DNA of 64,000 nucleotides. Origin: Pedobacter sp. Its GTDB lineage: Bacteria > Bacteroidota > Bacteroidia > Sphingobacteriales > Sphingobacteriaceae. The position numbers were made by a program, and so were the translations under genes. The stretch spans positions 481,233-545,232 of the forward strand of contig JAVHXV010000002.1 of the NCBI GenBank assembly GCA_031119475.1, read 5' to 3'. Below the pieces are notes generated by a model. It searched no databases. It had not been told where the DNA came from and saw nothing but the letters and a program-made list of their open reading frames with translations. This document shows positions 15,158 to 39,653 of the stretch, piece after piece; positions within the stretch are counted from its first letter, which is position 1, and every line of letters begins with the position of its first letter.

Positions 15158-15158
15158 T

Positions 15159-15190: not shown

Positions 15191-15200
15191 ATTGATACAT

Positions 15201-17305: not shown

Positions 17306-17332
17306 ATGGCCTCATCAACTCACCAACTATCA

Positions 17333-17364: not shown

Positions 17365-17392
17365 CGGTTTTAAAAACTCAAATCCAATTAAA

Positions 17393-19846: not shown

Positions 19847-19850
19847 CAGT

Positions 19851-19972
19851 TTTTGGTTAAGTATTGAGGTGATTAATCTTTACATATTCCATGGGGTATC
19901 CCTAATATTAGCCACAACATATTTAGCAGCTTCAGCACAATTAACCAATTAAGCAATTAACCAGTTAACCAT
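19851..19972. repeat. Intergenic spacer with AATTAACCAGTTAACC words before rfbA
   Basis: The spacer between rfbD and rfbA has a GGTTAAG word on its left side (19854-19860). On its right side (19938-19970) there is a run of AATTAACCA, AATTAAGCA and AATTAACCAGTTAACC. These are the same words as at 2233-2371, again with opposed arms. I find no clear promoter within it. Confidence 0.6.
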
Positions 19973-19975
19973 AAC

Positions 19976-20842: not shown

Positions 20843-20934
20843 ATATAGCTGCAAGGTGGTCTTCGGCCTTTGGTGGCCATTTTTGGTCTGAACGTCCTAA
20901 ATATGCTTTTTGATCATAACTTACTGGATTTTTA

Positions 20935-22218: not shown

Positions 22219-22240
22219 TTTTTTTTGTAGAAAAATATAA

Positions 22241-22270
22241 TTAGTCGATTAAATGTCGCTTTTAGTCGAT
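22241..22270 (+). promoter_or_regulatory. Two direct TTAGTCGAT repeats, possible operator
   Basis: TTAGTCGAT occurs at 22241-22249 and again at 22262-22270. The start-to-start distance is 21 bases, two helical turns, so a dimeric regulator could bind both on one face. The pair is about 90 bases upstream of the gmd promoter. No regulator gene is seen nearby. Confidence 0.35.
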
Positions 22271-22358
22271 GAAGTTGTGGTAAAGGTTGATGTGCATTTG
22301 GTTTTTCAATCCCCTTTTAATTAGAGATTTAAAAAGTTTGCCCATAGCTAGAAACATT

Positions 22359-22389
22359 TTTGTGACAGCAAAATTATTGCGTATGTTTG
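22359..22389 (+). promoter_or_regulatory. Promoter of gmd and the polysaccharide operon
   Basis: TTTG (22359-22362), a 19-base spacer and TATGTTTG (22382-22389) match the Bacteroidota consensus TTTG-N19-TAnnTTTG in full. The gmd ATG is 28 bases downstream of the -7 element. This is the clearest promoter in the window and probably drives the long run of genes that follows. Confidence 0.8.
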
Positions 22390-22416
22390 CAGGCTAGAAA
22401 AACTGCGTAAAAAATT

Positions 22417-23553
22417 ATGAAAGTAGCACTTATAACTGGTGTAACAGGGCAAGATGGAGCATATTTAACCGAGTTCTTATTGAAAAAAGGTTATTTTGTA
22501 CATGGCATAAAAAGAAGAAGTTCTTTGTTCAATACTGACCGTATCGATCATTTGTATCAGGACCAGCATGAGAACAATGTACATTTTAAATTACATTATG
22601 GCGATTTGACGGATTCGACCAATCTGATCAGGATTATCCAAGAAACCCAGCCGGATGAAATCTATAACCTGGCAGCAATGAGCCATGTGCATGTGAGCTT
22701 TGAAATGCCGGAATACACCGCCAATGCTGATGGTATTGGTACCCTAAGGCTACTTGAAGCGGTAAGGATTTTAGGCCTGACCAAAAAGACCAAAATATAC
22801 CAAGCCTCTACATCAGAACTTTATGGACTTGTTCAAGCGGTACCACAAAGCGAAACCACACCTTTTTATCCTCGCTCTCCCTATGCTGTAGCTAAAATCT
22901 ATGGCTATTGGATTACCGTGAACTACCGTGAGGCCTATGGCATGTATGCCTGCAACGGGATTTTGTTCAACCACGAAAGTCCGTTGAGGGGTGAAACCTT
23001 CGTTACCAGGAAGATTACCAGGGCGGCCTGTAAAATTGCATTGGGACTTCAGAATTGCCTGTACCTGGGCAATTTGTCTGCACAAAGAGATTGGGGCCAT
23101 GCGAAAGATTATATCGAGGCGATGTGGCTGATCCTGCAACAGGAAAAGGCAGAAGATTTTGTGATTGCCACAGGGATCACCACGACTGTCCGCGACTTTG
23201 TAAAAATGAGCTTTGCCGAATTGGGCGTTACCATCGAGTTCTCTGGCAAAGATGAAAATGAAAAAGGTGTGATCATTGATATCGACGAAGCCAAAGCCAA
23301 TGAACTTGGCCTGAATATGGAATCTTTGAAGTTGGGTGCAACCGTTGTTAAGGTTGATCCTAAATATTACAGGCCTACAGAGGTAGATCTATTGTTGGGC
23401 GATCCAACAAAATCAAAAACTCAATTGGGCTGGAAGCCTAAATATGACCTGCCTGCACTGGTAGAGGACATGATGAAGTCTGATCTTACCCTGATGAAAA
23501 AAGATGAGCATTTGAAAGTTGGCGGGTTTAAGACCTTAAATTATTTTGAATAA
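22417..23553 (+). CDS. gmd: GDP-mannose 4,6-dehydratase
   Basis: Gmd converts GDP-mannose to GDP-4-keto-6-deoxymannose, the precursor of GDP-L-fucose, GDP-perosamine and related sugars. The product is 378 aa, full length. The motifs are [19 protein letters not shown] (residues 8-26), [26 protein letters not shown], and STSELYG. The catalytic [15 protein letters not shown] carries YxxxK, with [15 protein letters not shown] after it. The partner enzyme fcl is not adjacent but lies at 54813-55739 on the other strand. Expression starts from the promoter just upstream. Confidence 0.97.
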
Positions 23554-23612: not shown

Positions 23613-26078
23613 ATGAAGGAAAAAATTGTAAAGGTCATCATGCTTTTATTTATAGGCATGATGGTCACAATTAACGCCATTGCACAAACTAATTTCGCGA
23701 CCCTAAAGGTTGATGAACTTTCTGATGCACAGATCTTGCAGATCATGAAGCAGGCGGAAGTGACAGGGGTAACTACAGTGGCACAATTGGAACAGATGGC
23801 GTTGGCCAGGGGCATGAAAGCTGAAGAAGTCCAAAAATTTAAACTGCGCGCTGAAAAATTAAAGGGGCAGGGATCATCTGTTCAAACGGCCAATAAGCCG
23901 GCGGCAACCGGCCGCGAAAATAGTGAGACCACAGAAGGGGGAGACGTAAACAACCAGACCAGGGAAATACAGAAGGGCCTGCCAATTTTTGGATCCGACC
24001 TATTCCGGAACGGCAACATCACCTTTGAGCCCAATTTGCGTATTGCCACTCCAAAAGGATATATTATTGGCCCCGACGATAAACTGATCATAGACCTGAC
24101 TGGCGATAATGAGGTTACCTATAACCTTGGCGTATCTCCCGAAGGTACCATTGCCATCCCTTATGTTGGCAGAATAGCCTTGGGTGGACTGACCATTGAG
24201 CAGGCCACTTCAAAAATCCGTGCAAACATGCGCGGCACCTATCCGGCATTAGCTTCTGGCAGAACACAACTGGCTGTTAATCTGGGAAACATCAGAAGTA
24301 TAAAAGTGATCATTACGGGCCAGGCCGTCAGAACAGGGACATTTACGGTTTCGTCTTTGTCATCGGTATACAATGCGCTGAGTGCCTCAGGCGGACCAAG
24401 TCAGAACGGATCATTCCGGAACATCCAAGTGATCAGGAACAACAAGATCGTAGCGGTGATCGATGTCTATGATTTTATCCTAAAGGGGATAAAAAAGAAT
24501 GACATCAGACTCGAAGATCAGGATGTGATCAATATCCCGGTGTATAATAAACGGATTGAGGTTTCTGGGGAAGTAAAGCAGCCAGCATTATTTGAACTCG
24601 TGAATGGAGAAACCCTGCAAAATGCAATAGATTTTGCAGGCGGATATACCACCTTGGCCTATCAGGCAAAAATCAAGGTCTTCCAGAATACGGATCGTGA
24701 ACGCCGGATTATGGATATCCCTAATGCTGAATTCAATCGTTATGTGCCAAAAAATGGTGATAAGTTTGTTGTAGAAGCAATCTTAGACCGTTTTGAAAAT
24801 AAGGTAGAGATTTTTGGGTCTGTTTTTAGGCCAGGGGTTTATGAACTCGAAAAAGGACTAACACTGAAGCAATTGATTTTAAAAGCAGATGGGTTAACTG
24901 AAGATGCATTTCTAAATCGGGCGTATATCAACCGCTTCAACCCAGACCAGACACAAAACTTTATCTCTTTTGACCTGGCTAAATTAATGGCGGGAACAAT
25001 TCCAGACATTCCATTGAACCGCGAAGATAAGATTACGATCAATTCCATCTTTGACCTGCGCGAAGAATATACGGTCAGCATCCAAGGTGAAGTGAGGGCC
25101 CCGGGAACATTTCAATATGCAGATAACCTGAAACTTGAAGACGTGATCCAGATGGCCGGAGGATTAAGGGAAGGAGCAACACCGAATAGGATAGAGGTTT
25201 CAAGGAGGGTAAAGAACACCGATGTGAGTTCCTCATCTGCACGGACCGCAGAACTTTTCGTCCTTTCTGTAGATCAGGATCTGAGGATCCTGGACCAGAC
25301 TTTTCAACTCAAGCCTTTTGATATCATTTCTGTCCGAAATTCGGAAGGATATAGCATCCAAAAGCAGGTTAGGATTGAAGGCGAAATCATGTTTCCAGGA
25401 TCGTACACCATCACCAGTAAAGATTATAGGATTTCGGATCTGGTTAAACGAGCTGGCGGGCTGACAACATCAGCTTATGCTGAAGGAGCTTCGCTCAAAA
25501 GGCCTGGCGCTGAAAAGGTAAACCCGGCAGATAAGAATGCCATTAATAACAAAGAGGAAGAGAACAAGAAATTCCTAAATCTGGAGCGTGTACAGGAAAC
25601 TGGTGATAAGGCAGTTGAAAAAGCCAAAGTGAACATGGAACTCGTACAATCTGATCTGGTGGGCATCAACCTGGATAGGATACTCCAAAAACCTTTGTCT
25701 AAACAAGACCTGATCTTAGAGGAAGGCGATATTATTCGGATCCCTAAGCAATTGCAAACGGTTAAGGTTACCGGGGAGGTGCTCAACCCGAACAGCATTG
25801 TGTATTTAACGGGCAAAACTTTGCGTCAATATATCAATGGCGCGGGCGGCTTTACCACGACAGCTTTAACGAGCGGAGTTTATGTGAAGTATGCCAATGG
25901 TTCTGCCGAAGCGGCAAAGAAATTCCTTTTCTTTAATAACTACCCGAAAATTAAACCAGGTGCAGAAATTTTGGTACCAAAAAGACCAGACCGCGAAAAG
26001 TTGACCGCCCAAAGTTGGATCGGCATCGGTACGGGCTTGGCATCTTTAGCTGCCATTATTGTGAGTTTATTAAGGTAG
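23613..26078 (+). CDS. Wza-like polysaccharide export outer-membrane protein with SLBB repeats
   Basis: The protein is a periplasmic/outer-membrane exporter for surface polysaccharide. The product is 821 aa with a signal peptide (about residues 1-25, ending NAIAQ). After a linker it has the Poly_export domain (about 145-240, PKGYIIGPDDKLIIDLTGDNEVTYNLGVSPEGTI in pieces). Several SLBB domains follow (about 245, 310, 395, 490, 595 and 710; each with a VxIxGEV-type start, for example VTGEVLNPNSIVYLTGKTL). A C-terminal helix WIGIGTGLASLAAIIVSLL ends the protein. It has more SLBB units than Wza of E. coli, as is common in Bacteroidota. There is no lipobox. Confidence 0.9.
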   Translation: MKEKIVKVIMLLFIGMMVTINAIAQTNFATLKVDELSDAQILQIMKQAEVTGVTTVAQLEQMALARGMKAEEVQKFKLRAEKLKGQGSSVQTANKPAATGRENSETTEGGDVNNQTREIQKGLPIFGSDLFRNGNITFEPNLRIATPKGYIIGPDDKLIIDLTGDNEVTYNLGVSPEGTIAIPYVGRIALGGLTIEQATSKIRANMRGTYPALASGRTQLAVNLGNIRSIKVIITGQAVRTGTFTVSSLSSVYNALSASGGPSQNGSFRNIQVIRNNKIVAVIDVYDFILKGIKKNDIRLEDQDVINIPVYNKRIEVSGEVKQPALFELVNGETLQNAIDFAGGYTTLAYQAKIKVFQNTDRERRIMDIPNAEFNRYVPKNGDKFVVEAILDRFENKVEIFGSVFRPGVYELEKGLTLKQLILKADGLTEDAFLNRAYINRFNPDQTQNFISFDLAKLMAGTIPDIPLNREDKITINSIFDLREEYTVSIQGEVRAPGTFQYADNLKLEDVIQMAGGLREGATPNRIEVSRRVKNTDVSSSSARTAELFVLSVDQDLRILDQTFQLKPFDIISVRNSEGYSIQKQVRIEGEIMFPGSYTITSKDYRISDLVKRAGGLTTSAYAEGASLKRPGAEKVNPADKNAINNKEEENKKFLNLERVQETGDKAVEKAKVNMELVQSDLVGINLDRILQKPLSKQDLILEEGDIIRIPKQLQTVKVTGEVLNPNSIVYLTGKTLRQYINGAGGFTTTALTSGVYVKYANGSAEAAKKFLFFNNYPKIKPGAEILVPKRPDREKLTAQSWIGIGTGLASLAAIIVSLLR

Positions 26079-26185: not shown

Positions 26186-27316
26186 ATGACAACAGAAAGT
26201 CGGCAGGCTACAAATAAGGATGGCGAGGAAGTTTCTTTGAGAGAACTCGTACTTAAGATACAGGAATGGTGGCGCTACCTGTTGTCCAAGTGGCTGGTGA
26301 TTCTGATTTTTGGGATATTGGGCGCAGGTCTGGGATTCGTATATGCCTATTTCAACAAAACTACCTACACAGCGGTTACCACTTTTGTGCTAGAGGAAGA
26401 AGAAAAGGGCAGTGGCTTGAGCAGCCTGGCATCGATGGCGGGTATTGATGTGGGCGGAGGTGGAGGTGGCATTTTTCAGGGCGATAACATCGTTGAACTG
26501 TATAAGTCCAGAAAGATGATCGAAAAGACTTTGCTAAGCGAAGTCGTGATCCAGGGTAAAAAACAATTGCTCATTGACCATTTCATCAACTTTAATAAGC
26601 TAAGGGAAGCTTGGGCAGAGAAGCCCCAACTAAAGGGCATTTCCTTTTCAGCTGCCGATCGGGCGCCAGACGATCAGCTTCAGCCTGAAGACCTCAATTC
26701 TTCGGTTCCTAGATCCCTAAATAACAATACACGGATCAAAGATAGCATCATGGGTGTCATTGTAGATGACATCAATACCCATTACCTCAACGTGGGCAAG
26801 CCCGATAAAAAATTAAGCATCATCAAGGCCGAAGTGAAGTCGACAGACGAGGCCTTCGCCAAAGCTTTCAACGATCAGATCGTAAAGAACGTGAACGATT
26901 TTTATGTGCTCACCAAAACCAAGAAATCCCTGACGAACGTAACGATCCTACAGCACAAGACCGATTCTGTAAGGGCCGGAATGTACGGTTCTATTTATTC
27001 TGCCGCTGCCATTGCAGATGCTACGCCCAATTTAAACCCAACCCGTCAGGCACAACGAGTGGCTCCAATGCAACGTTCGCAGTTTTCGGCCGAAGCCAAT
27101 AGGATCATGCTTGGCGAATTGGCAAAAAACCTGGAAATGTCGAAAATGGCCCTATTGAAGGAAACACCTTTGATACAGGTGGTAGATGAGCCGATTTTCC
27201 CGCTGCCAAAGGAAAGATTTGGAAAATTGAAGGGAATTATTTTGGGGGGATTTCTTTTTGGGTTCTTTGCGGCGTTGGTATTGATCTTTAAGAAAATTTT
27301 ATCATTTAATACCTAA
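26186..27316 (+). CDS. Wzz-like polysaccharide co-polymerase (chain-length determinant) without kinase
   Basis: This 376-aa inner-membrane protein has the Wzz topology: a cytoplasmic N-terminus, helix 1 (about residues 36-57, KWLVILIFGILGAGLGFVYAYF), a large periplasmic domain, and helix 2 (about 350-370, GIILGGFLFGFFAALVLIF). The first helix is followed by YTAVTTFVLEEEEKG, a common Wzz feature, and a Gly-rich GGGGGG segment. It would set polymer length with Wzx/Wzy. No Walker motif or Tyr cluster is present after helix 2, so this is not a Wzc-type kinase. Confidence 0.88.
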   Translation: MTTESRQATNKDGEEVSLRELVLKIQEWWRYLLSKWLVILIFGILGAGLGFVYAYFNKTTYTAVTTFVLEEEEKGSGLSSLASMAGIDVGGGGGGIFQGDNIVELYKSRKMIEKTLLSEVVIQGKKQLLIDHFINFNKLREAWAEKPQLKGISFSAADRAPDDQLQPEDLNSSVPRSLNNNTRIKDSIMGVIVDDINTHYLNVGKPDKKLSIIKAEVKSTDEAFAKAFNDQIVKNVNDFYVLTKTKKSLTNVTILQHKTDSVRAGMYGSIYSAAAIADATPNLNPTRQAQRVAPMQRSQFSAEANRIMLGELAKNLEMSKMALLKETPLIQVVDEPIFPLPKERFGKLKGIILGGFLFGFFAALVLIFKKILSFNT

Positions 27317-27339: not shown

Positions 27340-28368
27340 ATGGTTGAAAATATAAGAAACAGGACATACATCATCGCAGAAGTTGGGGTAAACCACAATG
27401 GCAGTGTTGATATTGCTTTGGAACTGATCGAAAAGGCAAAAGAAATAGGTGTGGATTGTGTGAAGTTTCAAACATTCAAGGCTAGCCAGATCGTTACACA
27501 AACTTCTCCAAAAGCAAATTATCAGATGAAGGTTACGGATAAAAACGAATCCCAATTTGATATGCTCAAAAAATTGGAACTGGAAAGGGCTGATTATGTC
27601 CAACTGTTAAAAAGGTGCAAGGAATTGGAAATCGATTTTCTTTCTACCCCCTATAATAAAGAAGATGTAGATTTTTTGGAATCGCTTGATGTGGTTGGCT
27701 ATAAGATCGCATCTGGCCAGTTGACAGAGCTCCCGTTCCTGAATTATGTGGCCAGCAAGCAAAAGCAGATGATCATCTCTACCGGGATGGCCAATATAGC
27801 CGACGTTTTTTCGGCGGTAGAAGAAATCAGGAGCACAGGCAACCATAACATCATTGTTCTGCAGTGTACCACAAACTATCCATCGAAAATAGAAGACGCG
27901 AACCTGATGGCCATGTTGAGCATGAAGGAAGCCTGCAAGGTCAGGGTTGGATATTCAGACCATGTTGAAAACAACTATGCCTGCTTTGCGGCCACCGCAC
28001 TTGGGGCCGAAATTGTAGAAAAGCATTTTACGCTGGACAGAAATATGGAAGGCCCAGACCACTCCTCTTCACTAAACCCTTCAGAATTTAAAGAGCTGGT
28101 TTTGGGGATCAGGAATATAGAAATGGCACTGGGAAGTGGATTAAAGGTTCCTTCGAAGATCGAATCTGAAAATGCCTACGGGATGAAAAGAAGCCTTGTC
28201 GCCTTAAAAGATCTGAAAGCAGGTGAAGTACTCCGAGAAGAGTTTATAGGATTTAAGCGTCCGTTTTCGGGACTGTCTCCAAATATGTTGAACCAGGTAA
28301 TCGGAAAAAAATTAACAAAAGATGTGGTAGCTGATGAAGCCCTACAATATGGGTCAATTGCATGGTAA
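27340..28368 (+). CDS. NeuB-type nonulosonic acid synthase
   Basis: The protein belongs to the sialic/legionaminic/pseudaminic acid synthase family, which condenses phosphoenolpyruvate with a six-carbon amino sugar to a nine-carbon 2-keto acid. The product is 342 aa with AEVGVNHNG (residues 13-21), KFQTFKAS, DFLSTPYN, KIASGQLTELPFL, LQCTTNYPS, GYSDH, and EKHFTLDRNMEGPDHSSSL. A C-terminal SAF/antifreeze-like domain runs from about 280 to 340 (MKRSLVALKDLKAGEVL). Which sugar it accepts cannot be told by eye. No NeuC-type epimerase lies nearby, and the neighbouring genes are not those of the standard sialic acid route. Confidence 0.88.
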   Translation: MVENIRNRTYIIAEVGVNHNGSVDIALELIEKAKEIGVDCVKFQTFKASQIVTQTSPKANYQMKVTDKNESQFDMLKKLELERADYVQLLKRCKELEIDFLSTPYNKEDVDFLESLDVVGYKIASGQLTELPFLNYVASKQKQMIISTGMANIADVFSAVEEIRSTGNHNIIVLQCTTNYPSKIEDANLMAMLSMKEACKVRVGYSDHVENNYACFAATALGAEIVEKHFTLDRNMEGPDHSSSLNPSEFKELVLGIRNIEMALGSGLKVPSKIESENAYGMKRSLVALKDLKAGEVLREEFIGFKRPFSGLSPNMLNQVIGKKLTKDVVADEALQYGSIAW

Positions 28369-28811
28369 AAACAGACCAAACAGAAATCAGGGCAGTTTCT
28401 GAGCGAGATCAGGAAGTGATCAAAAAATTCCTATCTGAAGCGGGAACATCGCTCCAGACCTTCAGGTATTTTGAGCGGCGTGATTTCGATGTCTTGAAAA
28501 ACCATGTGGTTACTGCCATTTTATTTTTTAATGGCGAGCCGGTTGGTTATGGCCACTTGGATGCAGAAAAGGATAGGGTATGGCTTGGCGTAGCGATTGG
28601 GGAGGGGCACCTCGGCAAGGGATTAGGTTCGAAAGTGGTCAGCTTCCTGCTCAACAGAGCTAAAGCGGAACATATAAAAATAGTGAGCTTAAGTGTTGAT
28701 GTGACCAATCTGGCAGCCATTTCCCTGTATAAAAGACTTGGTTTTGAGGTCATCAGGAACCTAAACGAAAATGTATATTTAATGGAGTGCAAAACAGACG
28801 CCCAATGTTAG
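28362..28811 (+). CDS. GNAT family N-acetyltransferase
   Basis: This 149-aa acetyltransferase has the acetyl-CoA pyrophosphate loop GHLGKGLGSKVVSFLL (about residues 86-101) and the C-terminal SVDVTNLAAISLYKRLGFEVI typical of GNAT enzymes. Between a NeuB-type synthase and an isomerase gene, a likely job is N-acetylation of an amino sugar, analogous to PseH in the pseudaminic acid route. The substrate is inferred from context only. It overlaps the synthase gene by seven bases and the next gene by seven. Confidence 0.82.
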   Translation: MVKTDQTEIRAVSERDQEVIKKFLSEAGTSLQTFRYFERRDFDVLKNHVVTAILFFNGEPVGYGHLDAEKDRVWLGVAIGEGHLGKGLGSKVVSFLLNRAKAEHIKIVSLSVDVTNLAAISLYKRLGFEVIRNLNENVYLMECKTDAQC

Positions 28812-29653
28812 AAATCTATATCAGTTCTCTTGCTTTTTTAGGAGAAAGCCCTGAAAATATAGTCAAAATGGCAAAAGCCAATGACCTGAACATCGAATTT
28901 AGTTCGGGAATGGACTATAGGGAAGATATGGAAGACTTTTATCTGGGGACCGATCTCAAAAGGATACTCCATAACTACTTTCCAGCCCCAAAAATTCCTT
29001 TTGTACTAAATTTGGCCAGTAAGGATACCGAGATCAGGCAAAAATCTATTGCACATTGCATCAATGGGTTAATCCTGTCAAAAAAATCAGGGAGCACTTT
29101 TTTTGCCGCGCATGCCGGATTTTGCATTGATCCAGATCCTAATGAACTTGGTAAAAGAATTAAATATAGTGCAACTTTTGACCGGGAAGAACACAGGCAA
29201 CTATTCTTGGACTCGGTGAGGCTGATCTTGAAAAAAGCCCAAGAACTAGCGGTAGATTTCCTGATCGAAAATAATGTAATTGCCAGTTTCAACATTATTG
29301 ATGGTCAAAATCCATTGTTGTGCTGCGAAAGTGGAGAGATCAGCTGGCTCTTCAGTGAAATTGAACATCAAAGATTGGGACTGTTGCTGGATACCGCACA
29401 CCTGAAGGTAAGCTGTCAGACCTTATCCCTGGACTTAAACGAAGAACTGAACAAAATTGAGCCATTTATCAGGGCTGTTCACCATAGCGATAATGATGGC
29501 GCAGCTGATAGCAATGAAAAATTGGATACCGGATATTGGTTCCTTCCATCACTCAAAAAATATAGCCACCTTCCCCAAGTTTTGGAAGTAAAGAAAATCA
29601 ACTTAGAAGAAATAAGCGAACAAGTAAAATTGCTGCAACAAAATGAATATTAA
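28805..29653 (+). CDS. Xylose-isomerase-like TIM-barrel sugar isomerase/epimerase
   Basis: The 282-aa protein belongs to the AP-endonuclease-2/sugar phosphate isomerase-epimerase fold. The metal-ligand pattern is visible: Glu155 in IENN, Asp196 and His199 in DTAHL, His226-His227 in HHSDNDG, and Glu261 in LEVKK. These enzymes isomerise or epimerise sugars or act on keto sugars. In this cassette it could take the place of the missing NeuC/LegG-type epimerase that normally supplies the synthase with a free sugar; that is inference. I chose ATG 28805 over an upstream GTG, because it overlaps the GNAT stop by only seven bases. Confidence 0.8.
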   Translation: MLEIYISSLAFLGESPENIVKMAKANDLNIEFSSGMDYREDMEDFYLGTDLKRILHNYFPAPKIPFVLNLASKDTEIRQKSIAHCINGLILSKKSGSTFFAAHAGFCIDPDPNELGKRIKYSATFDREEHRQLFLDSVRLILKKAQELAVDFLIENNVIASFNIIDGQNPLLCCESGEISWLFSEIEHQRLGLLLDTAHLKVSCQTLSLDLNEELNKIEPFIRAVHHSDNDGAADSNEKLDTGYWFLPSLKKYSHLPQVLEVKKINLEEISEQVKLLQQNEY

Positions 29654-31085
29654 TACATTAAAGGTTAAAGTAGACGATAAAGTTAAACAGGCCCTGGTGG
29701 TTTTGAACGAGACAGGCTTGGGGACGCTTTTTGTAACCGATGGCAATGATAAATTAGTAGGTGTACTTACTGATGGAGACATTAGAAGGGCATTGTTAAC
29801 AGGTAACGGCCTAGATGAGCCCATTGTATCGGTGATGAACACCAACTATACGGCCCTGCCCATCGAAACAGACAATGCGGTTATTTTGGAGGCGATCAAT
29901 TCCAATATTAAAATTATCCCATTGATAGATGCTAGCCATAAATTGATAGACTACGCCTCGATCAATAAGATCAGGAGAATTTCTGTTGCAGCGCCATTGC
30001 TGAACGGAAACGAATTGGCCTATGTAACCGATTGTATCAAAACGAACTGGATTTCTTCACAAGGGAAATATGTAAGGGAATTTGAACAGCTGTTTACAGC
30101 ATACCATCAGGGCCGGAAATCGTTGGCGGTAAGCAACGGCACGGTAGCACTCCACCTGGCATTGGAAGCCTTGAATATTGGCCCTGGCGATGAGGTAATT
30201 GTGCCCGATCTAACATTTGCCGCCTCGGTAAACTCCATCATCTATACGGGCGCAACCCCGGTGTTGGTCGATGTTGAACAGGATTCATGGAATATCGACC
30301 TGAAGAAGGCCGAAGCACTCCTTACCCCAAATACCCGTGCGATTATGCCGGTGCATTTGTACGGCAACCCATGTAACATGGATGAGCTCTGCAGATTTGC
30401 GGAAAAACATAAGCTGTTGATCATCGAAGATTGTGCGGAGGCCCTGGGAAGCTACTACAATGGAAAATCTGTAGGCACCTTTGGAGATGTGGCCACGTAC
30501 AGCTTTTATGGGAACAAAACCATCACCACTGGTGAAGGCGGAATGGTTGTTTTTAAGGACGATCAAGTGGCTGATCGTGCAGCGATGCTACGCGACCATG
30601 GAATGGAAAAAACCAGGAGATATTGGCATGCCGAAGTAGGCTATAACTATCGCCTGACCAACCTACAGGCCGCCATCGGCGTAGCCCAATTCGAGCGGTT
30701 GGATGAATTTGTTTCGGCAAAAAGGAACATTGCCAATACCTATAACCAAACCTTGTCAAAGATTAACTATTTTCAGATTCCCGACGAGAAGGAAGGGGCA
30801 GTTAATTCCTATTGGCTATACACCTTTATGGTCAGGCCGGAAGCACCGTTCAAGAGAGATGAACTGATCGATTATCTCCATCTCGAAGGAGTAGAGACCC
30901 GGCCTGTGTTTTTTCCGATGCACCACATGCCACCATACCAAAAATTTGGGAAGCCGGAAGACCTCACGGTGTCGGCCCAGCTTTCGCAATGTGGCATGAG
31001 CTTGCCATCGTCGGTAAACCTGACCAAGATAGAACTTGACCACATCTGTAATGCAATAAAAGGTTTTATAAAGAAATTTGATTAA
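29643..31085 (+). CDS. CBS-domain pair fused to a DegT/DnrJ/EryC1 sugar aminotransferase
   Basis: The product is 480 aa in two parts. Residues about 1-115 form two CBS motifs (GTLFVTDGNDKLVGVLTDGDIRRAL, read in pieces, then a weaker second copy around IIPLIDASHKLIDYASI). Residues about 116-478 are a PLP-dependent sugar aminotransferase with WISSQGKYV, SNGTVALHLAL, IEDCAEALGS and GNKTITTGEGG, where Lys292 binds PLP. The aminotransferase part resembles GDP-perosamine synthase (RfbE/Per). CBS pairs usually sense adenine nucleotides, and in nonulosonate loci they are normally fused to a nucleotidyltransferase (PtmE), not to DegT. The overlap with the TIM-barrel gene (11 bases) shows one operon. 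Confidence 0.85.
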   Translation: MNINTLKVKVDDKVKQALVVLNETGLGTLFVTDGNDKLVGVLTDGDIRRALLTGNGLDEPIVSVMNTNYTALPIETDNAVILEAINSNIKIIPLIDASHKLIDYASINKIRRISVAAPLLNGNELAYVTDCIKTNWISSQGKYVREFEQLFTAYHQGRKSLAVSNGTVALHLALEALNIGPGDEVIVPDLTFAASVNSIIYTGATPVLVDVEQDSWNIDLKKAEALLTPNTRAIMPVHLYGNPCNMDELCRFAEKHKLLIIEDCAEALGSYYNGKSVGTFGDVATYSFYGNKTITTGEGGMVVFKDDQVADRAAMLRDHGMEKTRRYWHAEVGYNYRLTNLQAAIGVAQFERLDEFVSAKRNIANTYNQTLSKINYFQIPDEKEGAVNSYWLYTFMVRPEAPFKRDELIDYLHLEGVETRPVFFPMHHMPPYQKFGKPEDLTVSAQLSQCGMSLPSSVNLTKIELDHICNAIKGFIKKFD

Positions 31086-31086
31086 A

Positions 31087-32097
31087 ATGAAAATATTGAT
31101 AATTGGCCTGGGTTCTATGGGCAAACGTAGGATCAGAAACCTTAAAGCCTTGAATATAGCAGAAATACAGGGATTTGATCCTCGGCCAGACCGGAGAAAA
31201 GAGGCGGAAGAATTGTACGGCATCCAAACCTATCCAACCTTTGATGAGGCTGTTGCACATCAATTTGATGCTTTTGTCATCTCTGTACCGCCAGATATCC
31301 ATCATATTTACATGAAACTGGCCATTGAACACGGACTGCCCTTTTTTGTGGAAGCGAGTGTGGTAGATGACGATATGGATCTCATTATCAAAGGTGTTGA
31401 GGAAAAGGGGATACTGGCAGCACCATCTTCTACCATGATTTTTCACCCTGCCATTAAAAAGATCATGTCCTTTGTAAAAGATGGAACTTTGGGAAAAATT
31501 ACCAATATCATTTATCACTCTGGACAATATCTACCAGATTGGCATGTCTATGAAAGCGTAAAGGAATTTTATGTTTCCAATAAAGCTACCGGTGGGGCAA
31601 GGGAAATCGTACCATTTGAACTGACATGGTTGGTGAAATTATTGGGTTTCCCAACAGCGGTTTCAGGTCTATATAAAAAGACAATCGCCATTGAAGGTGC
31701 TGAAGAAATAGATGATACCTATAATGCATTATTTGATTATGGCGCTTTCATCCTTAACCTGACCATCGATGTTGTTTCGAGGGTGGCTACCAGAAAGCTG
31801 CTGGTCAATGGAGCAGAAGGCCAGTTGCAATGGGATTGGAATGATGACTTTGTAACGGTGTATACACCTGGTTCAGGAAGCGTGAAACATCATTTCAGCG
31901 TGATCGAAGCCCAGGAAGGATACAACAAGAACATCACCGAGCAGATGTATATCGAAGAAATGGATACTTTTATACAATCCGTAAATAAAAAACAGCCATT
32001 TGTAAACGACTTGCGCCAAGACCACAAAGTGCTAAAACTATTGTACGCCCTAGAAGAGTCAAGTGATCAATCAAAAACAATTGAAATCAAGTGGTAG
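31087..32097 (+). CDS. Gfo/Idh/MocA family sugar oxidoreductase
   Basis: This NAD(P)-dependent sugar oxidoreductase is 336 aa. The Rossmann start ILIIGLGSMGKRRIRNL (residues 3-19) is followed by VISVPPDIHHIY, FVEASVVDDD (in place of the usual EKP lysine motif), and a beta-sheet C-terminal domain (about 125-300). Related enzymes oxidise a sugar hydroxyl or reduce a keto sugar in amino-sugar synthesis. The usual EKPL lysine motif is not obvious here (FVEAS), so activity should not be assumed. I chose ATG 31087 over the in-frame TTG at 31078. Overlap with the next gene is seven bases. Confidence 0.82.
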   Translation: MKILIIGLGSMGKRRIRNLKALNIAEIQGFDPRPDRRKEAEELYGIQTYPTFDEAVAHQFDAFVISVPPDIHHIYMKLAIEHGLPFFVEASVVDDDMDLIIKGVEEKGILAAPSSTMIFHPAIKKIMSFVKDGTLGKITNIIYHSGQYLPDWHVYESVKEFYVSNKATGGAREIVPFELTWLVKLLGFPTAVSGLYKKTIAIEGAEEIDDTYNALFDYGAFILNLTIDVVSRVATRKLLVNGAEGQLQWDWNDDFVTVYTPGSGSVKHHFSVIEAQEGYNKNITEQMYIEEMDTFIQSVNKKQPFVNDLRQDHKVLKLLYALEESSDQSKTIEIKW

Positions 32098-32861
32098 GCA
32101 TTCTATTTACAGCAAGGTTGGGGTCGAGCAGGCTTTCGAGAAAACATCTCTTTGAGGCGGGGGGCCGAACGTTTATCGAATGGTTAACCGGACGTTTTAT
32201 CCGCGAGTTTAAAACTGAAATCGAAAATGGCGCGGTAAAACTGGTCTTGGCCACTTCAGACCAGCCAGAAAACAATGCTTTCCAACAGGTATTGGACCCA
32301 CTTGGTGTAGATGTATTTTACGGCGCCGTTTCAAACATCCCACAGCGGCACCTGAGCTGTGCACAAAAGTTTAAGATGGACCAGATCATCTCGATAGATG
32401 GTGATGATATCTTGTGCTCGACCCAGGCCGCCAGAAAAATCTTTGAAACCTTTACCAAGGGGACAACGAGTGATATTGTAGAAACGGCCGGCCTTCCATT
32501 GGGCATGAACTGTTCTGGTTATACGGTAGCCTATCTTGATCGGTCCCTGAAGAATTACCAGCAAGAAAAAATAGAAACAGGCTGGGGCAGGGTCTTTATC
32601 GATCCCAAGAAAGAAATCATCAAATGTGGCAACCATGATATTTACGACAAACTGCGCTTGACACTTGATTATGAAGATGACATGCTGTTTTTTACCGCTG
32701 TCATTAATTTTCTTGGAGATAAGGTTATGGATATCGACGACGAAGATCTGATCAGTACGATCAGGGCAAATAAATTTGATGAAATAAACAATCACCTTTT
32801 TGATGTGTATTGGGAGAATTTTAATTCACTAAAAGCCGAGGAACAGCGAAATGAAAAATGA
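32091..32861 (+). CDS. SpsF/NeuA-like cytidylyltransferase
   Basis: The 256-aa product starts at a GTG and begins VGILFTARLGSSRLSRKHL, the CTP-binding signature of CMP-sugar synthetases (ARxGSxRLxxK). It continues with VLATSDQPENN, IISIDGDDILC with acidic metal ligands, and an LTLDYEDDMLFFTAVINFL tail like SpsF. It should activate an acid sugar as CMP-sugar. The SpsF type is shorter in signature than NeuA and lacks its C-terminal domain. With the NeuB-type synthase 4 kb upstream it completes synthesis and activation of an acidic sugar. The GTG is chosen because the motif starts right after it. Confidence 0.82.
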   Translation: MVGILFTARLGSSRLSRKHLFEAGGRTFIEWLTGRFIREFKTEIENGAVKLVLATSDQPENNAFQQVLDPLGVDVFYGAVSNIPQRHLSCAQKFKMDQIISIDGDDILCSTQAARKIFETFTKGTTSDIVETAGLPLGMNCSGYTVAYLDRSLKNYQQEKIETGWGRVFIDPKKEIIKCGNHDIYDKLRLTLDYEDDMLFFTAVINFLGDKVMDIDDEDLISTIRANKFDEINNHLFDVYWENFNSLKAEEQRNEK

Positions 32862-34176
32862 AGATTACAAAGCAAGATTAAGGGCACTTATCCCAGGAGG
32901 GGCACACACGTATAGCCGTGGAGATGATCAATATCCAAGTAATGCCCCAGCTATTTTAGATCGTGGAAAAGGTGCCTATATCTGGGATCCCTCGGGGAAA
33001 AAATACCTTGATTATGGCATGGCACTCAGGGCCGTTACCTTGGGCTATGCCGATGAACAGGTGAACGCAGCCGCCTTTAGGGAAATGGAAAAAGGGGTTA
33101 ACCTGACCAGAGCAACGACCTTGGAACTGGAAGCCGCACAGACCATGGTCGACCTGGTCAAAGGTGCCGATATGGTCAAATTTGCTAAAAATGGATCGAA
33201 TGTAACCACTGCTGCAGTTAAGATCGCCAGGTCTTACACCGGACGAAAATATGTATGTGTGCCCAAGCAACAGCCTTTTTTCTCCTTTGATGATTGGTTT
33301 ATCGGAACTACACCTGTTTTAAAGGGTATTCCTTCAGAGCACCATTCTACCACACTGGTTTTTGAATACAATAACATTGCATCGCTACAACAATTATTTG
33401 ACCAATATCCAGATCAGATAGCGGCCGTAATCATGGAGCCTGCCACTACCTTGCTTCCCAATATGAGCGAAAAAGATGGGAAAACGATTAATTTTCTCCA
33501 ACAGGTACAGGCCATCTGCAATAAAAATGGAACGATTTTTATCATTGATGAAATGATCACTGGTTTTAGGTGGCACCTGAACGGGGCGCAGGCCTATTAT
33601 GGCATCGAACCAGATATCTCTACTTTTGGTAAAGGAATGGCCAATGGTTTTGCCGTTGCCGCCCTGGTAGGGAAACGGGAACTGATGGATGTGGGAAGCA
33701 TCGACAAAATTGGTTCTGAACGTACTTTTTTACTATCAACAACGCATGGCGCTGAAATGTGCGGTCTGGGGGCCTTTTTGGAAACCGTAAAAATCTATAA
33801 AGAGCAGCAGGTAGTTGACCATTTATGGAAATATGGGGCGCAGCTGTTCGATGGGATCAACCAGATCAGTGCTGGCCTGGACCTCAAGGACTTTTTCTAT
33901 ATGGATGGCAATGCCGTATCCATGAACTATGTAACCAAGGATCAGGAAGGAAATGTTTCTTTAGGATTTAGGACACTTTTCTCTCAAGAAATGATCAGAA
34001 ATGGTGTATTGATCCCTTGGATCGCCCCAAGCTTCATGCACCGTGAAGAGGAACTCCAATTTACATTAGATGCGGTGGCGCAATCGCTTGCAGTTGTAAA
34101 AAAAGCCCTTGGCGAAGGATTGGAAAAATATTTGGTTGGGCCTGCAATTAAACCGGTATTTCGCCAGTTTAATTAA
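32851..34176 (+). CDS. Class III aminotransferase, glutamate-1-semialdehyde aminomutase-like
   Basis: This PLP-dependent fold-type I enzyme is 441 aa. It shows IPGGAHTYSRGDDQYP, the KNGSNVTTAAVKIAR phosphate-site region, IIDEMITGFRWH, and STFGKGMANGFAVAALVG with PLP-binding Lys261. The start resembles HemL (IPGGV), but the lysine motif and the setting differ from haem synthesis. Here it lies 10 bases after the cytidylyltransferase start of overlap and just before a methyltransferase and an SDR. Its likely role is amination of a keto sugar, perhaps on the nonulosonate itself. HemL identity is unlikely in a sugar operon. Confidence 0.82.
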   Translation: MKNEDYKARLRALIPGGAHTYSRGDDQYPSNAPAILDRGKGAYIWDPSGKKYLDYGMALRAVTLGYADEQVNAAAFREMEKGVNLTRATTLELEAAQTMVDLVKGADMVKFAKNGSNVTTAAVKIARSYTGRKYVCVPKQQPFFSFDDWFIGTTPVLKGIPSEHHSTTLVFEYNNIASLQQLFDQYPDQIAAVIMEPATTLLPNMSEKDGKTINFLQQVQAICNKNGTIFIIDEMITGFRWHLNGAQAYYGIEPDISTFGKGMANGFAVAALVGKRELMDVGSIDKIGSERTFLLSTTHGAEMCGLGAFLETVKIYKEQQVVDHLWKYGAQLFDGINQISAGLDLKDFFYMDGNAVSMNYVTKDQEGNVSLGFRTLFSQEMIRNGVLIPWIAPSFMHREEELQFTLDAVAQSLAVVKKALGEGLEKYLVGPAIKPVFRQFN

Positions 34177-34186
34177 TTTTTTACCT

Positions 34187-34927
34187 ATGAATCAAGACTA
34201 TAAAAAAGCCTTAGAGCTGAATAAGGAGAATACGGATCGCTATTATAGGAAATCTATAGAAAAAACTGAGCAACAGAAATTCCTTGAAAAAATCCTTCAC
34301 GAAAGATTTGGCGATGATTTCGATCAGTCATTGAACATTGCAGATATCGCGTGTGGGGGCGGAACCTTGACACACCACTTATCTTCCCTATATCAAAAGG
34401 CCAATTTTAGCTTGGTTGACTATTTTGATGAAGCACTTCATCTGGCGAAAGACCTGAACCAGGGCGAGCGTTTCACGATTTTGAACAACAGCATCTACAC
34501 CTTGGAGAACTTTGAAGACCATACGTTTGATATCGTTTTCTGCTGGCAGACTTTATCCTGGTTAGAAGATCCTGAAGCCGCACTTCAACAGTTGCTCAGA
34601 ATTACCAAACCTGGAGGAAAGCTATTCTTGAGTTCGCTTTTCAATTTGGACCACGACGTTGATATTTACTCCAAGGTTTTAGATTATACCTTGGAAAGCG
34701 GTAATCAGGGCATCCCTTTCTCCTACAATACCTATTCATCTTATACGATCCATAAATGGATCGGAAAGGAAGTAAAAGAATTGACGTTAGAAAAGTTTAT
34801 CCCCAATATCGATTTTCAGTATGAGGGAAAGGGAATAGGAACATTTACCGTTAATAGTGACCGGGGCAGACTTCAGATTTCGGCTGGACAGCTTTTAAAT
34901 TGGGCAGTACTTCAAATCATTAAATAA
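34187..34927 (+). CDS. Class I SAM-dependent methyltransferase
   Basis: The product is 246 aa. Motif I is ADIACGGGTLTHHL, followed by a FDIVFCWQTLSWLEDPEAALQQLLRITKPGG stretch (split here) that is typical of the Methyltransf_11 group. The start at ATG 34187 leaves a 10-base gap after the aminotransferase; the frame opens further upstream within that gene. In this setting it probably O- or N-methylates a sugar. The target is unknown. Confidence 0.8.
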   Translation: MNQDYKKALELNKENTDRYYRKSIEKTEQQKFLEKILHERFGDDFDQSLNIADIACGGGTLTHHLSSLYQKANFSLVDYFDEALHLAKDLNQGERFTILNNSIYTLENFEDHTFDIVFCWQTLSWLEDPEAALQQLLRITKPGGKLFLSSLFNLDHDVDIYSKVLDYTLESGNQGIPFSYNTYSSYTIHKWIGKEVKELTLEKFIPNIDFQYEGKGIGTFTVNSDRGRLQISAGQLLNWAVLQIIK

Positions 34928-34928
34928 T

Positions 34929-35666
34929 ATGTTTTCAATTAAAGATAAGGTTATAGTCGTTACCGGCGGAAACGGTCTTTTGGGCCGCCAGTTGGTGGAG
35001 GGTCTCAGAGCAGGTGGCGCTGTTGTGATCAGTGCGGATATCCATTTTGAAAAGCAGACCAATGACGATGTGGTGGTCGATATTACCAGCCAGGAGAGCA
35101 TAGCAGCATGTATCGAATTCGTTTATTCGAAACACGGCAAAATAGATGGATGGGTGAACAATGCCTATCCCAGAACTAATGATTGGGGAAATAAACTCGA
35201 AGATATTCCCTTCGAGTCGTGGAGAAGCAATGTTGATATGCACCTGAATGGCTATTTTCTGTGCTGCCAGCTGGTGCTCCAAAAAATGAAGGCACAGGGC
35301 TCTGGTTCACTGGTCAACATGTCTTCTATATATGGCCTGGTCGGTCCCGATTTTTCAGTTTATGAAGGTACCGATATGACGATGCCTGCCGCCTATTCTG
35401 CCATTAAGGGCGGATTGAATACATTGACCAGATATCTCGCTTCATATTATGGCCCTGACCAGGTTCGGGTCAATACGGTTTCTCCCGGGGGGATATTCAA
35501 TCATCAGCCAAAACCTTTTGTTGACAATTATGAATCTAAGGTGCCCATGAAAAGAATGGGCGCACCGAAAGACATCGTGGCTGCGGTATATTTTTTACTG
35601 TCCGACGAAGCATCCTATATTACCGGTCATAATCTGATAGTAGATGGGGGCTGGAGTATAATCTGA
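34929..35666 (+). CDS. PtmA-like short-chain dehydrogenase/reductase
   Basis: The product is 245 aa. It has the classical SDR motifs: VTGGNGLLGRQL (cofactor loop), VNNAYPR, NMSSIYGLVGPDF (catalytic Ser), and YSAIKGG (YxxxK), with VSPGGIFNHQPKPF and a YITGHNLIVDGGW tail. The NNAYPR and SPGGIFxxQPxPF details resemble PtmA, which is encoded in the legionaminic acid/flagellin modification locus of Campylobacter jejuni. This links the cassette to nonulosonic acid synthesis. The gene begins two bases after the methyltransferase stop. Confidence 0.85.
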   Translation: MFSIKDKVIVVTGGNGLLGRQLVEGLRAGGAVVISADIHFEKQTNDDVVVDITSQESIAACIEFVYSKHGKIDGWVNNAYPRTNDWGNKLEDIPFESWRSNVDMHLNGYFLCCQLVLQKMKAQGSGSLVNMSSIYGLVGPDFSVYEGTDMTMPAAYSAIKGGLNTLTRYLASYYGPDQVRVNTVSPGGIFNHQPKPFVDNYESKVPMKRMGAPKDIVAAVYFLLSDEASYITGHNLIVDGGWSII

Positions 35667-35682: not shown

Positions 35683-36891
35683 ATGGGCGAGAGAGTCGAA
35701 AGCAAAAAAAATGTCTATTTCTACTGCTGCATAGGTGGTGATCTACTGATCTGTGCCGGGATTAGTAAGATTTTAAAGGGACTGGACCAAAATTACCATA
35801 CCGTTTTGGTACTGCCTGCACACGTAAGGGTAAAAGGTAAAATGGAACGTTACTACCATTTTTTTGATCAGTTAGAGGAACTTCCGTACTGCTCGTTCGG
35901 CTATAATATCTTTAAAACGCTTCCGAAAATAGTCAGGTTTTTAAAGGCACTGAACAACATCAGATTTGCTCCTGGTTCAGTATGTTTTATGTTCGATGTT
36001 TATGACCTGACCGAACTTTTGTTCTACAGAAAAATTAGGAACCTCAAAAAGAAGATCCGGATCAGATTGAATATTTTAACGGCATTCAATAATGGAGAGC
36101 TCGAAAAGAACAGGAAGGAACTGGTAATCAAGGGAACTGTTTTGAAATCGCTTTATGCCCTTCCACTTGCGCACCAGTTTTTTTACGAGTATAAAACCAG
36201 GGGCACGAATTTCGTGGGCCTGCATTCTACCAGAACGAGATGTGATCTACAGGTCTGTATCAAGCAATCCAAATATCAATCTGTTCCAGATCAGGTAATC
36301 AGGCAGGTGAATTATCCGCCAAACATCTTTTTTAGCGGAAAAAATGAATTTGAAACCCAAGAAGGCCTATTTGACAAAGGGACCCAGAACATCATCCTAT
36401 TGGTTGATGGTACGATCGCACATCAGATAAAAGATTATTGGGAAGATACGGGCACCATGATCAGGAAACTAAGGATGAACGGTTATGAACTTTTTCTAAA
36501 GGACCATCCCCTGTCCACTGTCCGTTTGCAGGATGTGATTACGGAAGAAGTAAAGATCATACCCGGCAAACTTCATATTGAAGAACTGTTCTTGGGCTAT
36601 AAAGATGAGATCAAGGCCATCTGTGGATATGGATCTACGGCCCTTTTAACAGCAAGTTGGTTGGGCATCCACGCAGTTGACCTTTCGGCACTTTATCATT
36701 TTCCCGAACTGCTGAAAGAAAGGTTTCGTATTTTTGTATCAATGGGCGAAAATATACGCACCGTATATTCCGTCGATCAATTGGACAACATCGGACAGTT
36801 GACTGATCGTGAAATTTCATTGCCAGTGTCTGAGCTGTATCAGGAATGGGAAAACATAATGATGGGTCAAACTACTAATCTAGCAAGGTAA
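35683..36891 (+). CDS. Putative sialyltransferase-like GT-B glycosyltransferase
   Basis: The product is 402 aa. I do not recognise a named family with certainty. Three features recall bacterial sialyltransferases of the GT38/GT52 groups: a VDG at residues 241-243 (D/E-D/E-G-type motif), a KDHP at His275-Pro276 (HP motif), and a GST at 317-319 within GYGSTALLTASWLG. In those enzymes such residues bind the CMP-sugar. The gene sits between the nonulosonate cassette and the flippase, where a transferase using the CMP-sugar would be expected. The N-terminal half is basic with no membrane segment. Its stop overlaps the flippase start by one base. Confidence 0.6.
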   Translation: MGERVESKKNVYFYCCIGGDLLICAGISKILKGLDQNYHTVLVLPAHVRVKGKMERYYHFFDQLEELPYCSFGYNIFKTLPKIVRFLKALNNIRFAPGSVCFMFDVYDLTELLFYRKIRNLKKKIRIRLNILTAFNNGELEKNRKELVIKGTVLKSLYALPLAHQFFYEYKTRGTNFVGLHSTRTRCDLQVCIKQSKYQSVPDQVIRQVNYPPNIFFSGKNEFETQEGLFDKGTQNIILLVDGTIAHQIKDYWEDTGTMIRKLRMNGYELFLKDHPLSTVRLQDVITEEVKIIPGKLHIEELFLGYKDEIKAICGYGSTALLTASWLGIHAVDLSALYHFPELLKERFRIFVSMGENIRTVYSVDQLDNIGQLTDREISLPVSELYQEWENIMMGQTTNLAR

Positions 36892-38855: not shown

Positions 38856-39653
38856 ATGATAAAAATAATAAAAGCCCTTACACCCCCTGTGGTTTTTGAT
38901 GTGCTAAAAAAGCTTTTTGGCCAAAAGTCGTATGGCTTTTCAGGGAATTATAAAACTTGGGCAGAAGCTAAAAGTCAGACTGGAGGTTATGACAATCCGG
39001 CCATATTAGAGCAGGTTAAAATTGCAGCACTCAAAATAAAATCTGGTGAAGCAGTGTATGAAAGAGATTCAGTTCTTTTTGATCAAATACAATACTCATG
39101 GCCATTATTATCTGGGTTACTTTGGATAGCAGCCCAAAAAAAAGGGAATCTATCTGTGCTGGATTTTGGTGGAGCGCTTGGAAGTACCTATTTTCAAAAC
39201 CGGACTTTCATAAGTGACCTATACGTAACTTGGGATGTCGTTGAACAGCATCACTTCGTAGAATTTGGTAAAAAAGAATTGCAAGATGGTAGGCTTAGTT
39301 TCTTTTATACCATTGAAGATTGTTTAAAAGAGCATAGTCCATCAACCTTATTATTATCTGGTGTAATCCAATATTTAGAAGAGCCCTTCAAATTTCTGAC
39401 TGAAGCTTTGGATAAAGGTTTTGAATACATTTTGTTAGATAGGACCCCTTTCGCCAACGATAAAAAAAATAGGATTACGATACAGGAGGTTTCGCCAGAA
39501 ATCTATGCTGCTTCTTATGCCCATTGGTTTTTTTCTGAGGACCAGTTCCTGAACCTTTTTAAAGGTTACGACCTCATAGAATCATTTACATCTATTGATC
39601 GGCAAACTGAAATCTATTATAAAGGATTTATATTCAAAAAACGATGTTCCTGA
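38856..39653 (+). CDS. TIGR04325/LIC12133-type putative methyltransferase
   Basis: The product is 265 aa. The central LDFGGALGSTYFQNR segment, followed by WDVVEQHHFVEFGKKELQDGRLSF (in pieces) and LLLSGVIQYLEEPF, matches the TIGR04325 family of putative methyltransferases first named from a Leptospira gene (LIC12133). The glycine-rich segment is the SAM-binding motif. It is flanked by 64 and 130 bases of non-coding DNA, unlike the packed genes around it, and looks AT-rich by eye, so it may be a later insertion. The target is unknown. Confidence 0.7.
   Translation: MIKIIKALTPPVVFDVLKKLFGQKSYGFSGNYKTWAEAKSQTGGYDNPAILEQVKIAALKIKSGEAVYERDSVLFDQIQYSWPLLSGLLWIAAQKKGNLSVLDFGGALGSTYFQNRTFISDLYVTWDVVEQHHFVEFGKKELQDGRLSFFYTIEDCLKEHSPSTLLLSGVIQYLEEPFKFLTEALDKGFEYILLDRTPFANDKKNRITIQEVSPEIYAASYAHWFFSEDQFLNLFKGYDLIESFTSIDRQTEIYYKGFIFKKRCS

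Follow-up and report, generated by a model that had tools for sequence, protein, structure and literature searches.

A nine-gene cassette of Pedobacter that may build a nonulosonic acid from GDP-mannose by way of perosamine

Nonulosonic acids decorate many bacterial surfaces, and their synthesis is usually predicted from marker genes such as NeuC, PseG and LegG. A 64,000-nucleotide stretch of a Pedobacter sp. genome (assembly GCA_031119475.1, contig JAVHXV010000002.1, positions 481,233 to 545,232; hereafter the window) contains a nine-gene cassette with a NeuB-type synthase and a cytidylyltransferase and none of these markers. How could such an acid be made there? The cassette very probably makes some nonulosonic acid, and a perosamine-type precursor is reasonably probable. 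The whole route that we propose, leading from GDP-mannose via perosamine to a CMP-activated acid, stands in our judgement evenly balanced between right and wrong.

The nine genes (27340-35666, all on the + strand) form one operon-like run, in which neighbours overlap or lie 1 base apart, with a 10-base gap to the methyltransferase if its later start is taken. Judged from the sequence, 28805, 31087 and 34187 are the likelier starts of the TIM-barrel, Gfo/Idh and methyltransferase genes. An open reading frame (ORF) check confirmed this compact arrangement, and Pfam and NCBIfam scans returned the gene families that the original prediction had named. Families and positions below are as observed; each function called proposed, with its substrate and product, is our reading of them. 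The gene for GMD lies upstream of NeuB and is separated from it by two genes of export type.

22417-23553, + strand: GMD, GDP-mannose 4,6-dehydratase (TIGR01472, 591 bits, above cut-off); proposed first step
27340-28368, + strand: NeuB-type nonulosonic acid synthase with SAF domain (TIGR03569, PF03102, PF08666)
28362-28811, + strand: GNAT (PF00583); proposed N-acetyltransferase of the 4-amine
28805-29653, + strand: TIM-barrel protein (PF01261); proposed GDP-sugar hydrolase
29643-31085, + strand: CBS-DegT aminotransferase (CBS and DegT domains); proposed GDP-perosamine synthase
31087-32097, + strand: Gfo/Idh oxidoreductase (PF01408); 55% identical to its counterpart in the Leg-type cluster L031
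32091-32861, + strand: CTP_transf_3 cytidylyltransferase (PF02348); 50% to L031; proposed CMP activation
32851-34176, + strand: class III aminotransferase, AT3 (NF004856, 639.6 bits, cut-off 486); 58% to L031
34187-34927, + strand: S-adenosylmethionine-dependent methyltransferase (PF08241)
34929-35666, + strand: PtmA-like SDR (NF006619, 265 bits, cut-off 255); 53% to L031

In the proposed route, GMD would convert GDP-mannose to GDP-4-keto-6-deoxymannose, the CBS-DegT protein would transaminate this to GDP-perosamine, the GNAT would acetylate the 4-amine, and the TIM-barrel protein would hydrolyse the GDP-sugar to free 4-acetamido-4,6-dideoxymannose. Sugars derived from GDP-mannose have the D-manno shape that NeuB-type synthases accept. 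Because the freed sugar would already be D-manno, a NeuC/LegG epimerase would be unneeded and hydrolysis alone would suffice. NeuB and phosphoenolpyruvate would then yield 7-acetamido-3,7,9-trideoxynonulosonic acid, in which C5 would bear a hydroxyl in place of the nitrogen of legionaminic acid. The predicted acid would be a hybrid, matching Kdn at C5 and legionaminic acid at C7-C9. After activation with CMP by the cytidylyltransferase, the tail proteins (Gfo/Idh, AT3, methyltransferase and SDR) would alter the part shared with legionaminic acid, C8 being the likeliest position, by oxidation and then amination, and the product would enter the exopolysaccharide of the surrounding locus.

The original prediction stated that an NDP-sugar dehydratase and a hydrolysing epimerase or hydrolase were both absent. 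This holds within 27340-35666, but GMD lies just outside the cassette, and inside it in several relatives. In the own genome (3.72 Mb, 15 contigs, 88.9% complete) no member of PF02350, the NeuC/LegG/WecB family, was found at E 0.01, by a search that was positive in 11 of 14 control genomes, and the best PseG score was 17.6 bits against a cut-off of 153.55. PF02350 was also not found in 7 of 26 genomes bearing related cassettes, and none of the 46 loci gathered around relatives of the TIM-barrel protein held a NeuC relative. PtmE, a CBS nucleotidyltransferase, was found neither among the nine genes nor in any of these 46 loci, the rest of the own genome not having been searched for it. The Kdn pathway uses mannose-6-phosphate and a Kdn-9-phosphate phosphatase; no phosphatase was found among the nine cassette proteins, the only ones searched for it.

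The window NeuB is the sole PF03102 protein of its genome at E 1e-10. It scored 416.7 bits with TIGR03569 (cut-off 399.65) and only 295.6 bits with the PseI-type model TIGR03586 (cut-off 340.25). In a tree with reference synthases, as had been suggested as a check, the cassette synthases formed a clade of 40 rows (support 100/98) apart from PseI. This clade stood beside four synthases of Leg or NeuC-holding clusters, a placement that is not firm (88/74), with three distant alphaproteobacterial rows placed elsewhere and the references forming long branches. On pathway knowledge, a position beside Leg- and NeuC-linked synthases and apart from PseI fits a D-manno substrate. An arginine near the N-acetyl group, which we take to be R314 of the meningococcal enzyme, was considered as a substrate marker and dropped, being kept in the window, PseI and meningococcal enzymes alike and hence uninformative. 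With no PF02350 protein found, 17.6 bits for PseG and a synthase in its own clade, the genome differs from the ordinary pathway that the original prediction had set against its own reading, namely a NeuC or PseG homologue elsewhere and a synthase grouping within NeuB or PseI.

The evidence for a perosamine-type precursor comes from the aminotransferase and from GMD. Among solved structures the CBS-DegT protein scored highest with the perosamine synthetase of Caulobacter, at 388 bits as against 305 bits for the next family. Its identity was 45.9% to an E. coli O157 protein annotated arnB, which we take to be Per from its position in the O-antigen cluster; two LegC proteins reached 37% and two PseC proteins 30-32%. 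A second DegT aminotransferase, without CBS domain, is encoded downstream among glycosyltransferases (40571-41686); it shares 41% identity with the DegT portion of the cassette enzyme. Of the 46 related loci, 11 had GMD within the cassette or next to it, and in five (L048, L065, L067, L083, L084) GMD stood between DegT and the cytidylyltransferase. It was present in all 26 cassette genomes searched (26 of the 46 loci were given a whole-genome search), as against 124 of 198 sampled Bacteroidota genomes (Fisher p 2.4e-5); genomes that are related do not count as independent in this comparison, and the own genome and genome G280 are part of the sample. The locus whose NeuB and DegT have the highest identity to those of the window (L054; 71% and 72%) belongs to a genome in which GMD was found and neither PF02350 nor PF02719 was.

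The TIM-barrel protein had been taken for an isomerase; its endonuclease IV-type ligand positions and its fusion to the GNAT make it more likely to be the missing hydrolase. In an alignment of 46 rows, H56, H103, E155, D196, H199, H226, N230, D235 and W245 were invariant, E261 was kept in all 43 rows reaching it, and position 237 was N in 40 and H in 6. Profile alignment with E. coli endonuclease IV paired H103 with H109, E155 with E145, D196 with D179, H199 with H182, H226 with H216, D235 with D229 and E261 with E261. Seven of the nine residues that we take to be the metal ligands of endonuclease IV (their presence in its sequence being confirmed) are the same in the TIM protein, and position 237 aligns with H231. 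The epimerase UlaE matches only E155, D196, H226 and E261 of these seven. This pattern suits a multi-metal phosphoester hydrolase. The predicted structure (predicted local distance difference test score 95.7) had its best fold match in MJ1311 (Z 26.9), which is labelled D-tagatose 3-epimerase-like; UlaE and further isomerases or epimerases came next, and the ten top Foldseek matches included endonuclease IV. GNAT and TIM protein formed a single ORF in 13 of the 46 loci, and one locus (L083) had an N-formyltransferase (PF00551) in place of the GNAT, which fits acylation of a sugar amine. Taken with the fusion to an acyltransferase, the ligand-like residues make GDP-sugar hydrolysis the best guess for this protein, and we lean slightly towards it.

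How widely the gene set recurs was assessed by scanning contigs with the TIM alignment. This gave 46 loci, 36 of them in Bacteroidota, mostly environmental; the others came from Balneola, Deltaproteobacteria, Verrucomicrobiia, Alphaproteobacteria (L087, L092, L093, L095, L096), Acidobacteria and Planctomycetota. In a search of 395 genomes of the phylum the TIM protein was found in 3, the own genome and those of L048 and L049. The loci were tabulated by tblastn with the proteins of the window, L031, L048 and L049, taking the nearest copy of each on the strand of the TIM gene. NeuB was found in 41 (in 39 within 3 kb), DegT in 37 (leaving out L075, whose DegT is cut by the contig end), the cytidylyltransferase in 34, the GNAT in 31, the SDR in 14, AT3 in 9, Gfo/Idh in 8 and the methyltransferase, beside the cassette, in 3. 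As the loci had been found by the TIM protein alone, this co-occurrence exceeds chance. Two relatives are compact sets of GMD, NeuB, GNAT, TIM, DegT and a NeuA-type cytidylyltransferase (L048, with GNAT and TIM fused, and L049, on the same contig as L077). In two others (L072, L073) the order is NeuB, fused GNAT:TIM, CBS-DegT, cytidylyltransferase (NeuA-type), class III aminotransferase, methyltransferase and SDR, only Gfo/Idh being missing in comparison with the window. The expected recurrence of the set was thus seen, with the order kept in these two loci, but none of the fetched loci held all nine genes together. A plasmid search at E 1e-8 returned one TIM relative, in Azospirillum sp. TSA2s (35.7% identity), where NeuB, GNAT, TIM, a 495-residue aminotransferase and a cytidylyltransferase lie within 7.6 kb and no NeuC is annotated in the surrounding 25 kb, for which the gene table is incomplete. 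Of 23 pattern matches to the TIM protein in viral contigs, none was confirmed. The recurring set, the separate synthase clade and the failure of the genome search to find NeuC/LegG or PseG support the suggestion that the cassette follows a different route or makes a differently decorated acid.

Some loci depart from this picture. In four distant alphaproteobacterial loci (L092, L093, L095, L096) the TIM gene is paired with Gfo/Idh and DegT genes; three of the four also hold NeuB and a cytidylyltransferase, and these loci may represent a further variant. In L053 (6283-7939) and L057 (1230-2887), which hold no NeuB, it adjoins an SDR gene in a context unlike a sugar cluster.

The oxidoreductase and the class III aminotransferase had been read as present in place of the missing enzymes. 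A locus of the same genus (L031, genome G071, 7206-16912) points elsewhere: genes for LegB-, LegC- and LegH-like proteins, NeuB, NeuC and a CBS-nucleotidyltransferase are followed by Gfo/Idh, cytidylyltransferase, AT3 and SDR genes in the same order as in the window, with 50-58% identity. Its Leg-type genes were named by reading, LegC and NeuC being backed by sequence comparison. Because the same tail follows this Leg-type cluster, Gfo/Idh, AT3 and SDR look like add-ons, not replacements. One tail behind two different heads probably acts on a part common to both products, either the carboxylate end or C7-C9. That it acts at C8 is possible, and we suggest it tentatively; L031 may lead to a legionaminic acid bearing an added amine. 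Flexibacter maritimum is known to have an 8-amino nonulosonic acid (PMC3210612). AT3 proteins of at least 54% identity occurred in 8 of the 46 loci, each with an SDR within about 2.2 kb; L085 has a further AT3 at a contig end, and the AT3 match of L074 is merely 31%. SDR and Gfo/Idh occurred without AT3 in L062, L071 and L090. AT3 was also not found in the cassette loci of Flavobacterium taihuense, Algoriphagus yeomjeoni, Algoriphagus iocasae, Pedobacter segetis and Flagellimonas algicola. We infer that the SDR may be an oxidase partnered either by AT3, for amination, or by Gfo/Idh, for re-reduction. Against this, L032 and L033 hold AT3 relatives with no SDR detected, and the authors of the Plesiomonas work (PMC4481668) put PtmA in the GDP-sugar half of legionaminic acid synthesis. 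The window SDR scored 177 bits with the PtmA model NF050062, below its cut-off of 350.

In the family of G280, AT3 was found at E 1e-120 in 3 of 397 genomes. Its relatives in phage records (12 records) reach 43.5%, in an unannotated faecal contig, and those of the SDR (19) reach 39.1%. On two Rhizobiaceae plasmids (L043, L044) a polysaccharide cluster that has no NeuB combines a member of the AT3 family (46%) with an oxidoreductase, a DUF4910 protein and a glucose-1-phosphate cytidylyltransferase. In L054, the genes between cytidylyltransferase and AT3 (12981-16166) encode a protein whose sequence resembles an N-acetyl sugar amidotransferase, although Pfam gave no match, together with a glutamine amidotransferase (PF00117) and a protein like HisF; this combination suggests an acetamidino form of the acid.

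Several observations weigh against the GDP-perosamine route. GMD was present in only 11 of the 46 loci and also serves GDP-fucose synthesis; an Fcl-like protein lies beside it in L051, L052, L055, L059, L086 and L087. NeuB is missing from five TIM loci (L053, L057, L078, L091, L096) and is present without DegT in five more (L060, L064, L068, L069, L070); some of these lie on short contigs, but not L060, L069 and L091. The LegC-family model gives the CBS-DegT protein 381.8 bits (cut-off 420) and the DegT tree does not separate Per, LegC and the cassette proteins, so that likeness to Per is support, not proof, for the proposed GDP-perosamine synthase. Moreover, 23 of the 26 cassette genomes (E 1e-40), as well as the own genome, hold a PF02719 dehydratase. 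We considered the possibility that the FlaA1-like member in the window (49157-51091) dehydrates UDP-GlcNAc, that CBS-DegT aminates and GNAT acetylates the product, and that the TIM protein is a new hydrolysing 2-epimerase replacing LegG, the outcome being an ordinary legionaminic-type acid. This would agree with the LegC score, with a fold common to sugar epimerases and with a synthase in the Neu/Leg neighbourhood of its tree. Yet the DegT protein resembles perosamine synthases more closely than it does LegC, five loci carry GMD and not a UDP-GlcNAc dehydratase inside the cassette, and PF02719 was not found at E 1e-40 in 3 of the 26 genomes, some of them incomplete metagenome-assembled genomes, while GMD was found in all 26; we regard this explanation as unlikely.

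The assignment of the TIM protein also has evidence on both sides. Its nearest folds include endonuclease IV but also epimerases and isomerases, so that the fold does not tell hydrolase from epimerase. NCBIfam gave a single, weak match, to an epimerase model (19 bits against a cut-off of 300). The endonuclease IV ligand H69 aligns with K63 and not with H56; E31 and H56 are also present in UlaE, which shares N237 too. These features, and the many sugar isomerases in PF01261, would be explained if the start from GDP-perosamine were kept and the TIM protein were an isomerase or epimerase of the free sugar, the GDP-sugar being hydrolysed by an enzyme outside the set. Three points make this quite improbable: H103, H199 and D235 coincide with ligands of endonuclease IV and lack a counterpart in UlaE, a D-manno sugar requires no epimerisation, and the tabulated neighbours show no second recurring hydrolase, although not all untabulated ORFs were scanned. 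A last alternative concerns the tail alone and is compatible with the core route from GDP-perosamine: AT3, SDR, methyltransferase and Gfo/Idh could build a small amino or hydroxy acyl group for the sugar amine instead of changing C8. At E 1e-40 AT3 has two solved relatives, both of them glutamate-1-semialdehyde aminomutases, enzymes with a small amino acid as substrate, and the Flexibacter maritimum acid bears a hydroxybutyryl amide besides its 8-amine (PMC3210612). We find this doubtful, as SDRs that belong to the Pfam family of the window SDR have been associated in Acinetobacter with nonulosonic acids epimeric at C8 (AciE, PMC5595891; EpaB, PMC12053666). The Acinetobacter locus L107, which carries no annotation, was left out of the analysis.

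The setting of the cassette is an exopolysaccharide-type locus, with sugar-nucleotide genes (17306-23553) and Wza- and Wzc-like genes upstream, and a flippase and several glycosyltransferases downstream. Window neighbours were named by ORF reading, except GMD, the FlaA1-like protein, the gene at 35683 and the methyltransferase at 38856, which were scanned with profiles.

23613-26078, + strand: Wza-like protein for polysaccharide export, next after GMD on the way to NeuB (ORF reading)
26186-27316, + strand: Wzc-like chain-length protein (ORF reading)
35683-36891, + strand: possible transferase of the acid (polysialyltransferase-like, PF07388 19.8 bits, below the cut-off of 23.3)
38856-39653: TIGR04325-family methyltransferase (212.6 bits, cut-off 80), within the exopolysaccharide-type locus
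49157-51091: FlaA1-like dehydratase (PF02719)

Among five neighbours resembling the gene at 35683, that of L060 exceeded the PF07388 cut-off (39.7 bits), those of L072 (19.1) and L076 (21.8) fell below it, and those of L088 and L048 gave no match to PF07388; nor did the neighbour in L049. The cytidylyltransferase has as its best solved relative another cytidylyltransferase (E 2.9e-8).

With somewhat less than even confidence, we propose that nonulosonic acid synthesis at these loci forms a class of its own, found mainly in Bacteroidota. It would be characterized by N-acylated GDP-perosamine, a GDP-sugar hydrolase of endonuclease IV type that is often joined to the acyltransferase in one protein, a distinct NeuB clade and an undescribed 5-hydroxy-7-acylamido-9-deoxy acid, with further amination at C8 possible in the own genome and at least 8 others. 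The nonulosonic acids named in PMC9912281 are Neu5Ac, Neu5Gc, Kdn, Pse, Leg, 4eLeg, 8eLeg, Aci, 8eAci, 8ePse and Fus. Our literature search, the coverage of which excludes most subscription journals, returned no description of a GDP-perosamine-derived nonulosonic acid. To our knowledge, none of the acids listed above combines a C5 hydroxyl with a C7 amine. A route from GDP-mannose via perosamine would explain the missing epimerase and predict an undescribed sugar acid; if it is real, it would add a new substitution pattern and a new role for the endonuclease IV/xylose isomerase superfamily. A route that lacks NeuC, PseG and LegG would be overlooked or, because the window NeuB exceeds the cut-off for N-acetylneuraminate synthase, misread as one to sialic acid.

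The legionaminic acid pathway of the Campylobacter/Plesiomonas type (PMC4481668) shares with the proposed route a NeuB-type synthase, a DegT aminotransferase, an N-acetyltransferase and CMP activation, and PtmF and PtmA correspond to the window Gfo/Idh and SDR. It differs in that no LegG/NeuC was found in the window's genome, that the cassette is without PtmE, and that GMD lies nearby, with a TIM barrel and a class III aminotransferase added. The sps genes of Bacillus subtilis, which serve a UDP-linked Leg route, likewise cluster an aminotransferase, an acetyltransferase, a NeuB-like synthase and the cytidylyltransferase SpsF; they are reported (PMC7439481) with SpsM, acting on UDP-GlcNAc, and the hydrolase SpsG, the places of which would be taken here by GMD and the TIM barrel. 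GDP-perosamine synthesis in E. coli O157 and Caulobacter has in common with the route GMD and a Per-like DegT, with an N-acyltransferase; in the cassette, however, the sugar would not be transferred as GDP-perosamine but released and lengthened to a nine-carbon acid. Kdn synthesis, like the proposed route, starts from a mannose-shaped sugar and leaves a hydroxyl at C5, whereas the acid of the cassette would have an amine at C7, a deoxy C9 and GDP-linked intermediates. Finally, the TIM protein shares with endonuclease IV the barrel fold and most of the metal-ligand positions, but differs from it in belonging to a sugar locus, in its fusion to a GNAT and in a longer loop with an invariant HNYFxP motif.

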